This document shows positions 50,036 to 55,238 of a stretch of 55,597 nt of DNA, one piece after another. Position numbers and translations under genes: made by a program. The notes under the pieces are model-generated. The model was not told where the DNA came from and ran no database searches. It saw nothing but the letters and a program-made list of their open reading frames with translations. Each line of letters begins with the position of its first letter. Position 1 is the first letter of the stretch. Origin of the DNA: Bacillota bacterium (lineage in GTDB: Bacteria; Bacillota; Sulfobacillia; JAJYWN01; JAJZPE01); the NCBI GenBank assembly GCA_036504675.1, contig DASXUT010000052.1, positions 1 through 55,597 on the forward strand, read 5' to 3'.

Positions 50036-50247
50036 CGGAAACCCCCGCCCTGAAAAACAGGACGGGGGCGAGTGACCTCCGTGGTGCCACCTGCGTTGGT
50101 GTCCAAAAATCGGACACCCGCTCATTTGTTCGGACCTCGCGGGTCCATTCCAGCCACCGGTCGGCGCCGGATTCGCACCCTCCCGGCTCTCTGGGGCCTT
50201 CCGCAAGTGACCGTACTCTTCCCGCTCATTGGTCTCATTGTTGGATT
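50036..50247 (-). promoter_or_regulatory. T-box riboswitch leader of trpS
   Basis: The T-box motif AGGTGGCACCACGG lies on the minus strand at 50079-50092. The terminator is CCCCCGTCCTG / CAGGGCGGGGG (50042-50068) around TTTTT, followed by TTTCC. The 5' domain starts GCGGGAAGAGTA and contains AGAGAG. A UGG triplet (50145-50147, in GGAATGGACCC) directly before the closing strand of Stem I is a good tryptophan specifier candidate. Confidence 0.9.
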
Positions 50248-50294: not shown

Positions 50295-51863
50295 TCATCC
50301 CTTGAGCCGCAGCCAGATGGTCTTCAGGTAGGCCGGCTCGGCCCGGCTGACCGGGAAGTCAGGTGGCTGGGGGGCGAAGTGGCTCCGGGTGACCGTCCGC
50401 CCGGCCTCCCGGACGGCGCCCGTCACCGCCTCGATGAAACGCTCCGGCGCCAGCTTGGCGGCGTTGGTCGAGGCCAGCAGGCAACCGTCGGGCTTGAGCA
50501 GCGGCATGATCGATGCAACCAAGCGGCCGTAATCCTTGGCGGCCTGGAACGTCCCCCGGCCCTTGGCCCGCGAGAAGGTCGGCGGGTCGAGGATGACCAA
50601 GTCGTAGAGGCGACCCTTGCGGGCCAGCCGGCCGGCCCAAGCGAAGACATCGCCGTAGATGAAGTCGTGGTCGGCCGGATCAAGTCCGTTGGCGGCGAAG
50701 CTGCCGCGGCCCCACTCGAGGTACTTTCGGGACAGGTCGAGGCTGGTGACCCTGGCCCCGGCGGCGGCCGCACAGACCGAGAAGCCGCAGGTGTAGGCAA
50801 AGGCGTTGAGGACCTCCCGGCCGCGCGCCGCCGCCCGCCCCGCCTCCCAGAGGGGGAAGCCGGCCGCGACGTGACCGGTGAGGAGCCGGCGGCGGTTGTC
50901 TCTCTGGTCCAGGAAGAGGCCGACCGAGTAACCCTCATCAAAGCTGATCAGGAAGGACAAGCCGTTCTCGCGGACGGGGAATTCGCCCGAAGTGCGGCCG
51001 CCCAGGACAGGTCGGGGCGAGGCGTCCTCACCGGCCAAGCCGGCCGGGTCACGGCGGAGGACCTTCTGATAGGCGCCCAGCGCCCCGACCGCGCCGGCGA
51101 AGGCGTCGACGACCATACTGGCGCCGTCGTCCAGCGTCTCCTCCGCTTGGGCCAGCAGGTATCGACCGAAGCGGTCGAGGTAGAGTCCGGGGGCACTGTC
51201 TGAGGCCCCGTGGATGAGGCGGTAGGTGTCGGTCTCCTCCGCGTCGATGACCGCGCGGCGGAGGGCCAGCCGGGGGTCGGTCCGGAAGTCGGCGGGCACG
51301 CGGAAGGTCATCGCTTCGTCGGTGGCCGGGTGCCGAAAGCCAATCTCCTCGGCGTGAAGACAGAGGCGAGGGGCCGGGGTTCCGCCGTAGACGGCATCCC
51401 CAAGGACCGGGAAGCCCTTCTGGGCCGCCTGGACGCGGATCTGATGGGTCCGACCGGTCAGCGGCTCGGCCCGCAGGGTGGTCAGGCCGTGCGCCTCCGA
51501 GAGCCGGATGAAGCGGGTGGCGGCCGGGGCCCGGGCGACGACCGACTCGACCAACGCCTCTTCATCGGGGACGCGACGGTCGGTGACAAAGACGTAGGCC
51601 TTCTTGACCGTGCGGGTGGTGAACTGGTCGGTCAGCGAGCGCGCGGCGGCGGTCGTCTTCGGGAAGACCATCACCCCGGACGTCTCCTTGTCTAGCCGGT
51701 GGACCACGGTCAAGCCGGCCCAACGCGGCTCACGGTCGCGGAGCCATTCGTAGAGGCCCTCTCCGGCGTAGAGCGCGGGGGCGTGCGTGTTCAGACCCGG
51801 CGGTTTGCTCACCACCAGCAGGTCATCGTCCTCATGGACGAGGAGGTCACGGAGCTGCGACAC
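50295..51863 (-). CDS. RluA-type pseudouridine synthase fused to RlmI-like SAM methyltransferase
   Basis: Residues 1-210 form an RluA-family pseudouridine synthase: VVSKPPGLNTHA, VVHRLDKETSGVMVFPKT (catalytic Asp in HRLDKETSG), AEPLTGRTHQIRVQAAQKGFPVLGD. Residues about 215-522 resemble RlmI/RlmK-type 23S rRNA cytosine methyltransferases: TYRLIHGASDSAPGLYLDRFG, VGLFLDQRDNRR, VLNAFAYTCGFSVCAAAAGA (SAM-binding), DLVILDPPTFSRAKG (catalytic-type DPPxF). The PUA domain normally preceding the methyltransferase is replaced by the synthase. It would be a bifunctional rRNA modification enzyme. Confidence 0.9.
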   Translation of the reverse strand: MSQLRDLLVHEDDDLLVVSKPPGLNTHAPALYAGEGLYEWLRDREPRWAGLTVVHRLDKETSGVMVFPKTTAAARSLTDQFTTRTVKKAYVFVTDRRVPDEEALVESVVARAPAATRFIRLSEAHGLTTLRAEPLTGRTHQIRVQAAQKGFPVLGDAVYGGTPAPRLCLHAEEIGFRHPATDEAMTFRVPADFRTDPRLALRRAVIDAEETDTYRLIHGASDSAPGLYLDRFGRYLLAQAEETLDDGASMVVDAFAGAVGALGAYQKVLRRDPAGLAGEDASPRPVLGGRTSGEFPVRENGLSFLISFDEGYSVGLFLDQRDNRRRLLTGHVAAGFPLWEAGRAAARGREVLNAFAYTCGFSVCAAAAGARVTSLDLSRKYLEWGRGSFAANGLDPADHDFIYGDVFAWAGRLARKGRLYDLVILDPPTFSRAKGRGTFQAAKDYGRLVASIMPLLKPDGCLLASTNAAKLAPERFIEAVTGAVREAGRTVTRSHFAPQPPDFPVSRAEPAYLKTIWLRLKG

Positions 51864-52609
51864 GGCGATAGCCTCCTAGAAGTCACAAAGGATCACAGAG
51901 TTCGCCTGAACTCGACGATGGTGTAGCGTTCGAAGACCGCGCCTGGGGCCTGCCCCCTAGATGGCCCACGGATCGGCGATCCCCTTGACCCGGAACGGCT
52001 TGGCGCCGGGAAGGTCACGGAGATATTGCGCGTGAGTGACCGCGGGCCAACCCGCCGCTTCAGTCGCCTGAAGGATCAGGACAGGATGAACGTGTCTTCC
52101 CCGCCGGTGCCGATCTTCCCCTGCCCCTGCCTGGCCACCGTCCAGGTCATCGGCGTCGAGTCGGGCGGTGGCCGCCGGGCGGTGGGGTGTTGACGACCGG
52201 GTCCTCATCGCCCCAGGCGGATTGACGGGATGCCGTAGGATACGATGATGGTATGGTCGCTCGCGCCTCATTCATCAGACTCCCCGGCGACACCGGTTGG
52301 CCCGAGCTGATATAGACTTCCCGACCAAAGGCGGCCCTATCAAGGTCTACGGCGGCGAGGATCTGGTCCCTAGACTCCGGACCGTCCGGGCGGCCACCCG
52401 GGCGACGACCCACCGACCCGAGCGAGACGTCGCTTGCGAATGGGGCTCGGCGGACTTCGGTGACCATCCTCCTCTGCTTTTATACGTTAAAGCGATGGGC
52501 GAGTTCTCCTCCTTGTGGGGGTGAGTGCAGAAATTTTATTTAAGGAATACCTCTCCATTGAAGGAAAATGTAGGCGTCTGTCGAATGTCGTCCCTGGAGG
52601 TGAATAGCA
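51864..52609. other. Long stretch without a confident gene
   Basis: Both strands hold only short frames without recognisable start sites or families. One minus-strand frame ending at 51957 (GRHVHPVLILQATEAAGWPAVTHAQYLRDLP) has a protein-like hydrophobic pattern and might be an eroded gene end, but I cannot assign it. The last 110 bases are comparatively AT-rich and should contain the promoter of the Lys/Ala-rich gene. Confidence 0.45.
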
Positions 52610-54038: not shown

Positions 54039-54123
54039 TGCCCTTCCCCCTCGAATAGCAGACATGGCACGGACGGCAGGGTGACCTGCCGTCCGCGACC
54101 GGCCCCGAAAGGGGCGTCTTCTG

Positions 54124-54195
54124 AGCGGAAGACGGGATTTGAACCCGCGACCCTCGCCTTGGCAAGGCGATGCTCTACCGCTGAGCCACTTCCGC
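54124..54195 (-). tRNA. tRNA-Gly (GCC)
   Basis: Acceptor GCGGAAG/CTTCCGC, T-loop GTTCAAATC, anticodon loop TTGCCAA. CCA not encoded. Confidence 0.95.
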
Positions 54196-54211
54196 TGGAA
54201 ATACCGGCGTG

Positions 54212-54296
54212 TGCGGGCGGGGAGACTTGAACTCCCACGGGGGTGAAACCCCAACGGATCCTAAGTCCGTAGCGTCTGCCGTTCCGCCACGCCCGC
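54212..54296 (-). tRNA. tRNA-Leu (TAG)
   Basis: Class II tRNA of 85 bases with a long variable arm (TTGGGG...CCCC); acceptor GCGGGCG/CGCCCGC, anticodon loop CTTAGGA. Confidence 0.95.
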
Positions 54297-54303
54297 TTGG
54301 TTG

Positions 54304-54375
54304 TGGGCCATGATGGGGTCGAACCATCCACACCCCGCTTAAAAGGCGGGTGCTCTGCCGCTGAGCTAATGGCCC
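54304..54375 (-). tRNA. tRNA-Lys (TTT)
   Basis: Acceptor GGGCCAT/ATGGCCC, anticodon stem CCCGC/GCGGG with loop CTTTTAA. Confidence 0.94.
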
Positions 54376-54379
54376 TAGA

Positions 54380-54454
54380 TGGCTGGGGCGGCTGGATTCG
54401 AACCAACGAATGCAGGATCCAAAGTCCCGTGCCTTACCACTTGGCTACGCCCCA
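54380..54454 (-). tRNA. tRNA-Gln (TTG)
   Basis: Acceptor TGGGGCG/CGCCCCA, anticodon loop CTTTGGA, encoded CCA. Confidence 0.95.
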
Positions 54455-54504
54455 TGGAAACATCGTCACGGTCGCGACGCGATGCGTCAGCGCCCCTTGA
54501 CTTG

Positions 54505-54578
54505 CGCGCCCGGCAGGACTCGAACCTGCGGCCTGCTGGTTCGAAGCCAGCCACTCTATCCAGCTGAGCTACGGGCGC
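54505..54578 (-). tRNA. tRNA-Arg (TCG)
   Basis: Acceptor GCGCCCG/CGGGCGC, anticodon stem GCTGG/CCAGC with loop CTTCGAA. CCA not encoded. Confidence 0.95.
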
Positions 54579-54688
54579 ATTGACTGACATCGACTTGACT
54601 AACCGGACTTGAACAGGGACTTAGGTGAAGCGCCTCCATCCCCGAACGTAGGCGATCAAGGACCAAAGGCGCCCGCTCTCTTAGCTTG

Positions 54689-54763
54689 GGTGAATGACGG
54701 GGCTCGAACCCGCGGCCTCCAGGGCCACAACCTGGCGCTCTAACCAGCTGAGCTACATCCACC
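54689..54763 (-). tRNA. tRNA-His (GTG)
   Basis: Acceptor GTGGATG/CATTCAC with an extra 5' G opposite C73, anticodon loop TTGTGGC. Confidence 0.95.
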
Positions 54764-54801
54764 ATGAACTATGAAGCTTAGGCCCACGTTCGGCACAGAA
54801 T

Positions 54802-54830
54802 ATCTTAACATAGCCTGGTCTCGAATTCAA
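54802..54830 (-). promoter_or_regulatory. Internal promoter before tRNA-His
   Basis: Minus strand TTGAAT, 17-base spacer, TAAGAT, about 40 bases before tRNA-His. It would drive the six tRNAs from His to Gly(GCC). Confidence 0.6.
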
Positions 54831-54960
54831 GTTGACTTCGCGACGTGTCCTTCAGGCCAGGCCCATCGCCTGGACCGCTCCTTCAGCCAGCCCCGGAAGT
54901 CGGGATGGGCGACGGCGATGAGGGCTTCGGCCCGCTGAGTTGAACCGGGCCGATGGTCTC
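54827..54960 (-). pseudogene. Acetyl-CoA hydrolase/CoA-transferase C-terminal remnant
   Basis: The frame ends QRAEALIAVAHPDFRGWLKERSRRWAWPEGHV..., matching the extreme C-terminus of acetyl-CoA hydrolase/4-hydroxybutyrate CoA-transferase family proteins (RAxALIxIAHPDFRxxLxxxA). Nothing recognisable precedes it. The segment lies between tRNA-Arg(TCT) and tRNA-His. Confidence 0.65.
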
Positions 54961-55083
54961 CGAGGCGATCTGCCGCTGCCCAAGCTGCGAACCCCCCGGT
55001 GCCGCGAAGGTTGCCGCGAAAATCAAAAGGGTCACGGGTTGCCCCGCAAACCCCGGCGGTCGTGGTGGCTTGCGCCACCCGAT

Positions 55084-55159
55084 TGGCGCGCCTGGCAGGA
55101 ATCGAACCTGCGGCCAGCTGCTTAGAAGGCAGCTGCTCTATCCCCTGAGCTACAGGCGC
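55084..55159 (-). tRNA. tRNA-Arg (TCT)
   Basis: Acceptor GCGCCTG/CAGGCGC, anticodon stem GCTGC/GCAGC with loop CTTCTAA, encoded CCA. Confidence 0.95.
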
Positions 55160-55167
55160 AGCATTTG

Positions 55168-55238
55168 AGCGGGTGATGGGAATCGAACCCACGTATCAAG
55201 CTTGGAAGGCTAGCGCTCTACCATTGAGCTACACCCGC
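55168..55238 (-). tRNA. tRNA-Gly (TCC)
   Basis: Acceptor GCGGGTG/CACCCGC, anticodon loop CTTCCAA. CCA not encoded. Confidence 0.95.

Follow-up and report, generated by a model that had tools for sequence, protein, structure and literature searches.

Enzymes that combine two rRNA modification activities in one polypeptide are already known in bacteria. In RlmKL (YcbY) of Escherichia coli (m7G2069/m2G2445), a C-terminal methyltransferase of the PF10672 type is likewise joined to a second rRNA-modifying domain, and PMC11194073 assigns the formation of m7G2069 to RlmK and has both of the E. coli enzymes RluC and RlmKL acting around the peptidyl-transferase centre. Titles in reference lists credit RlmQ (YwbD of Bacillus subtilis) with m7G2574. 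The PF10672 core is also found in RlmI (YccW), which makes m5C1962. The cysteine of the [ST]CS motif is catalytic in RlmI, and the pseudouridine synthase RluC has an S4 domain at its N-terminus. The gene described here differs from RlmKL in that the partner of its methyltransferase is a pseudouridine synthase, whereas the partner in RlmKL is another methyltransferase, RlmL. No description of PF00849 joined to PF10672 was found in the literature searched, in which subscription papers were thinly covered, and it is this pairing that is new within that literature. We consider it reasonably likely that the product is a bifunctional 23S rRNA enzyme that would make pseudouridine and m7G, probably near the peptidyl-transferase centre, with both of its halves active.

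The fusion gene and its two domains

The window, i.e., the whole stretch of 55,597 nucleotides that was analysed, belongs to a Bacillota bacterium and carries the fusion gene at 50295..51863 on the minus strand, as a single frame of 522 amino acids that starts with GTG and has no internal stop. AGGAGG, read from the sequence 8 nt upstream of the GTG (51872..51877, minus strand), is the likely Shine-Dalgarno element. The RluA-type catalytic domain begins a few residues past the start codon and occupies approximately residues 8-195 (51279..51842, minus strand), while the RlmK/RlmQ-like SAM methyltransferase region of PF10672 follows at approximately residues 196-522 (50298..51278, minus strand). 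Both Pfam families scored over their cut-offs, namely PF00849 at residues 14-148 (84.8 bits, cut-off 26.8) and PF10672 at residues 280-509 (103.6 bits, cut-off 27); no third family did so, and neither a PUA nor an S4 domain was detected at E≤1. Alignment located HRLDKETSG at residues 55-63 (51675..51701, minus strand), with Asp58 as the putative catalytic residue, and DPPTFS at residues 426-431 (50571..50588, minus strand). When 20 fusions were aligned (without L015, which is nearly the same as L013, and without L161, which turned up afterwards), PF00849 and PF10672 lay together in one frame in all 20, and PUA and S4 were again absent from the Pfam families matched. A missed frameshift, a concern raised by the first-pass annotation, and an assembly chimera were ruled out by these one-frame fusions elsewhere and by a copy in the genome G001, of the host's family, that sits amid the same neighbours as in the window (ClpP, trigger factor, TrpS, fusion, YchF). 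The frame is a genuine two-enzyme fusion gene, as the first-pass annotation had read it. Regarding the surroundings, a T-box leader (RF00230; 76.7 bits, E 5.3e-17, below the gathering score of 93) lies at 50055-50238 on the minus strand between the fusion gene and trpS, upstream of the latter, and eight tRNA genes (Gly, Leu, Lys, Gln, Arg, His, Arg, Gly) adjoin YchF at 54123-55238, also on the minus strand.

The catalytic residues of the synthase half are conserved to a high degree. R56, L57, D58, T61, S62 and G63, as well as K88, Y90, T139, H140, Q141 and R143, were invariant in the 20 aligned fusions, and H55 was kept in 19; mutation of key catalytic residues in homologues, the other concern of the first-pass annotation, is not seen in these fusions. 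D58 aligned with D144 of RluC, which is reported in PMC11194073 to be essential for catalysis, the D144A variant making no pseudouridines in E. coli. The sequence marks of the RluA family are indeed present, i.e., PF00849 over its cut-off and the Asp in HRLD..TSG, although the RluC equivalog model NF008249 gave only 93.3 bits against its curated cut-off of 378. The catalytic domain and its motifs are thus common to this half and to RluC and RluA, neither of which has a methyltransferase, but relative to these two the fused synthase domains are a clade of their own. In the synthase tree (built without L003, L005, L085, L096, L127, L040, L015, L018, L129 and sequences spanning fewer than 130 positions), the 19 fused domains formed this single clade with a support of 100/99, and RluC joined it at 93/43 under a long-branch warning. 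By fold comparison, residues 1-195 matched RluA (Z 24.2) and RluC (Z 23.5) equally well. It is to be noted that the window copy is about 10-20 residues shorter past residue 110 (window ~51500-51540), within the synthase domain, than the G001 copy and most fusions. The AlphaFold2 model of the fusion (pLDDT 92.1, pTM 0.90) was confident throughout and showed a two-domain fold, and this confidence suggests that the two domains are held in a fixed arrangement.

Occurrence and history of the fusion

A scan of contigs returned 31 relatives, comprising 17 full-length fusions (L007-L020, L022, L026 and L031), 12 matches to the methyltransferase alone, two of which (L033 and L034) are partial, and two synthase-only matches. 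By record title (some of these, e.g., Akkermansia muciniphila, look unreliable), the fusions were mostly from Verrucomicrobiota, with one from Bacillota (L014) and one from Acidimicrobiia (L031). Within the host's order, three of the four genomes carried the fusion (G000, G001 and G003), the last of which appears to be the L014 genome, having an identical 555-residue frame; its copy does not lie within the row of ClpP, trigger factor, TrpS and YchF. The fusion was not found in G002, a genome of the host's family that is 97% complete. In the larger samples, three to five candidates were scored per genome, so that the following genome counts are lower bounds: among 398 genomes sampled evenly across the host phylum, 9 had a match at E≤1e-35, i.e., the host and eight others that matched from query residue 196 onward only, with no synthase in frame; the phylum to which the L007 genome belongs gave 49 genomes with a match out of 387; and the class of L031 (Acidimicrobiia) gave 2 out of 247, the L031 genome itself and G1034, the match spanning residues 3-528 of 532. 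Thirty loci from the L007 phylum consisted of three fusions (L096, which equals L007, L097 and L098) and 27 methyltransferase-only genes, and the remaining 19 of the 49 matches started at residue 157 or later. A 31% match from residue 157, G685:C8:15174-16262, lies in an open frame of 498 amino acids, which leaves room for a second domain. The fusion therefore recurs across three phyla by record title, and other genomes with the same fusion, for which the first-pass annotation had suggested a search, are in hand: two in the host's order, those of Verrucomicrobiota, and two of the Acidimicrobiia class.

The window protein was 49-59% identical to its Verrucomicrobiota relatives (41% to L098). 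Since these are close, and the fusion was missing from the other genomes of the host-phylum sample, a transfer from Verrucomicrobiota may be the source of the host gene, the direction being inferred. The full-length tree of the 20 fusions was poorly resolved, with the three Bacillota copies together at 77/92, which lends modest support to a single acquisition by Bacillota.

Nine methyltransferase-only sequences, mostly marine by record title, fell among the fusions in both methyltransferase trees, i.e., the tree of 88 regions discussed below and a reduced one of 58 of these 88 without E. coli RlmK. Constraining the fusions to exclude this branch, a grouping named after the 88-region tree had been seen, was disfavoured (p-AU 0.016), while constraining fusions and marine branch to one clade was not rejected (p-AU 0.233); that clade was not recovered because of L031. 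A search of eight marine-branch genomes (the genome of L029, the ninth sequence, lay outside it) found only other synthases, the six matches of nearly full length being 36-41% identical, and those placed in the synthase tree fell outside the fused clade. The simplest reading of these phylogenies is one fusion event, after which the synthase would have been lost in the mostly marine branch; the marine genomes are possibly incomplete, and L031 and L098, both on long branches, make the root unsure. Active-site motifs of the marine branch (L021, L023-L025, L027-L030 and L032) differ after this apparent loss, all nine sequences having LDMR and CCN in place of the LDQR and, in most cases, STN of the fusions. 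As to the origin of the fusion itself, the first-pass annotation had the synthase replace a PUA domain. Six free-standing methyltransferases of the Verrucomicrobiota type that were scanned with Pfam (L099, L101, L104, L109, L125 and L035) had neither PUA nor synthase, so it is more likely that the synthase was added to an enzyme already lacking PUA.

Two alternatives to the bifunctional reading draw on this history. In one, the synthase half would mainly be an RNA binder that positions the methyltransferase, a stand-in for PUA or THUMP, with pseudouridylation incidental or absent; the fusions indeed have no detected PUA or S4 domain, and the mostly marine branch retains the methyltransferase alone, as if this were the essential part. 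Binding by itself, however, needs no such constancy as that of R56-L57-D58, T61-S62-G63, Y90 and T139-H140-Q141-R143 in all 20 fusions, and free-standing relatives of about 300 amino acids exist without a Pfam-visible extra RNA-binding domain; RNA recognition as the sole role of the synthase, which the first-pass annotation had offered as a second option, is weakened by the invariant residues and appears unlikely to us. The other alternative is that two independent rRNA enzymes with distant sites were joined by chance, without functional coupling. Since the marine branch keeps the methyltransferase without the synthase, the latter must be dispensable for persistence of the former, and the stand-alone methyltransferases likewise suggest a dispensable partner. 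Nonetheless, the fused-synthase clade persists in diverged Verrucomicrobiota as well as in a Bacillota order and the Acidimicrobiia class, and the two-domain fold was predicted with confidence, which makes an accidental joining rather improbable. The bifunctional, coupled reading is hence retained in what follows.

Kinship and likely product of the methyltransferase half

The active-site residues of the methyltransferase half are also conserved, with D319, R321, N353, D376, D426, P427, P428, S465 and N467 invariant in the 20 aligned fusions. Its relationships were examined in a tree of 88 regions, which excluded duplicates and near-duplicates (L003, L005, L085, L096, L127, L040, L015 and L018), partial sequences (L033, L034, L062 and L130) and those spanning fewer than 250 positions. 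A branch with a support of 100/100 separated 22 sequences, with E. coli RlmI and L006, the RlmI-type enzyme of the host, on their side, from 66 others, which included E. coli RlmK, the RlmQ-type enzymes, the free-standing Verrucomicrobiota-type enzymes and all 19 fusions. The [ST]CS motif divided them in the same manner, being present in 22/22 of the RlmI branch and in 0/66 of the others, all 66 of which have N at its third place; in the window protein this is STN (residues 465-467; 50463..50471, minus strand, by alignment). RlmO (4dmg, TTHA1493), an m5C1942 methyltransferase by its structure title, has SSCS and DPPT alike, and it is therefore the cysteine motif, not DPP[ST], that is the telling feature. 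Neither RlmO nor DR_0049, the founder of the m5C2499 family Rlm_2499C5 according to PMC4690841, was among the sequences of the methyltransferase trees; the chain 1wxw (TTHA1280) in the 88-region tree is not RlmO. PMC4510066 names IV and VI as the motifs that bear the catalytic cysteines of Nop2-type m5C enzymes.

The position of the fusions within the RlmK/RlmQ side is less clear. Nine Bacillota RlmQ-type sequences, which we take to be RlmQ, formed a clade of their own (100/99) with the fusions outside it. They resemble the fusions in having N at the third position of [ST]CS, but differ in having DPPSF without an insertion and no synthase; the one RlmQ-type sequence that was scanned with Pfam (L058) had PUA_3, as did the host's L006, whereas the fusions had none. 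DPPTFS with a one-residue insertion after it is common to the fusions and RlmKL, while the nine RlmQ-type and the 22 RlmI-branch sequences have a gap at the site of the insertion. E. coli RlmK attached on the fusion side with L031 (87/39), on a branch of 2.48 and with a long-branch warning; because this branch is very long and its placement unsafe, kinship to RlmK and to RlmQ could not be told apart. By structure comparison, residues 196-522 were best superimposed on 3vse (Z 35.7, rmsd 1.9, 301 aligned), followed by 3ldf (Z 32.9), 2as0 (30.5), RlmI (28.9), RlmK (27.2) and RlmO (26.8). 3vse and 2b78/3ldf, the best by fold, were first and third by sequence, and are presumably RlmQ relatives. The motif and the insertion thus point to RlmK and the fold to 3vse, i.e., the relatives disagree. 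The same half also matched mt-LAF24, chain E4 of the trypanosome mitoribosome large-subunit assembly intermediate 6yxx (Z 24.9, 15% identity), and chain EC of that entry is a pseudouridine synthase-like protein.

Taken together, these comparisons indicate that the methyltransferase half probably does not belong to the m5C (RlmI) type. Its more likely product is m7G, because the half groups on the RlmK/RlmQ side, lacks [ST]CS and fits best on 3vse and 3ldf. The label 'RlmI-like' in the first-pass annotation consequently holds at the level of the PF10672 family only, and its methylcytosine product loses ground. An m5C methyltransferase of the RlmI/RlmO/C2499 type, modifying a cytosine near the pseudouridine, seems quite improbable, for although Rlm_2499C5 (NF033380) was the best NCBIfam match and both C2499 and U2504 occur in the host 23S rRNA, the 160.2 bits fell far under the 650-bit cut-off, [ST]CS is absent, the fusions lie across the 100/100 branch from RlmI, and the host already has L006, a separate gene with SSCS and PUA_3. 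An m5C2499 plus Psi2504 assignment from NCBIfam ranks was dropped on the motif and tree evidence.

Proposed function and its meaning

In the proposed mechanism, the RluA-type N-terminal domain would convert uridine to pseudouridine via Asp58, and the C-terminal PF10672 domain would use SAM to methylate a guanine, most likely at N7 as in RlmK and RlmQ, the likely substrate being 23S rRNA around the peptidyl-transferase centre. The fusion would let both reactions hit one assembly intermediate, comparable to RlmKL of E. coli for two guanines. Coupled rRNA modification is the likeliest reading, since the fusion is genuine and both active sites are conserved; in this respect the suggestion of two coupled modifications in the first-pass annotation survives, except for cytosine as the methylated base. 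More tentatively, pseudouridine and m7G may lie a few nucleotides apart (e.g., Psi2580 with m7G2574) and be made in a set order during a single visit to the 50S precursor, the Psi step having been lost in the mostly marine lineage.

PF10672 had two matches in the host genome (96% complete), the fusion and the RlmI-type enzyme, and as the other match is of the RlmI type, the fusion is the only PF10672 candidate there for an m7G activity of the RlmK/RlmQ type. The host also has a RluD-like, a second RluA-family and a RsuA/RluB-type synthase, all of these and the RlmI-type methyltransferase, except the second RluA-family synthase, being assigned by nearest family below equivalog cut-offs. None of 23 genomes matched the E. 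coli RlmL half, in a search that had no positive control, while PF01170 (RlmL-type) matched in 19 of 20, the host match being weak and partial (best 27.4 bits, cut-off 22.3). In the host 23S rRNA (L155), one of only two found among 23 genomes, G2069, G2574, U2504, U2580 and C2499 were all present. Position 955 (E. coli numbering) has G for U, U955 being one of three RluC sites; as the other candidate sites looked at were kept, this comparison does not discriminate between targets.

A standing question is for what reason modifications in bacteria crowd around the peptidyl-transferase centre, and another is whether 50S assembly follows a set order of enzyme action; single deletions of such enzymes in E. 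coli had very small growth effects, as stated in PMC11194073. The conserved joining of two modification chemistries in one chain points to sites or steps kept jointly by selection, and the branch with apparent loss of one half offers a natural control. The rRNA of the groups carrying the fusion is, to our knowledge, little mapped, and the fusion predicts modifications in it.
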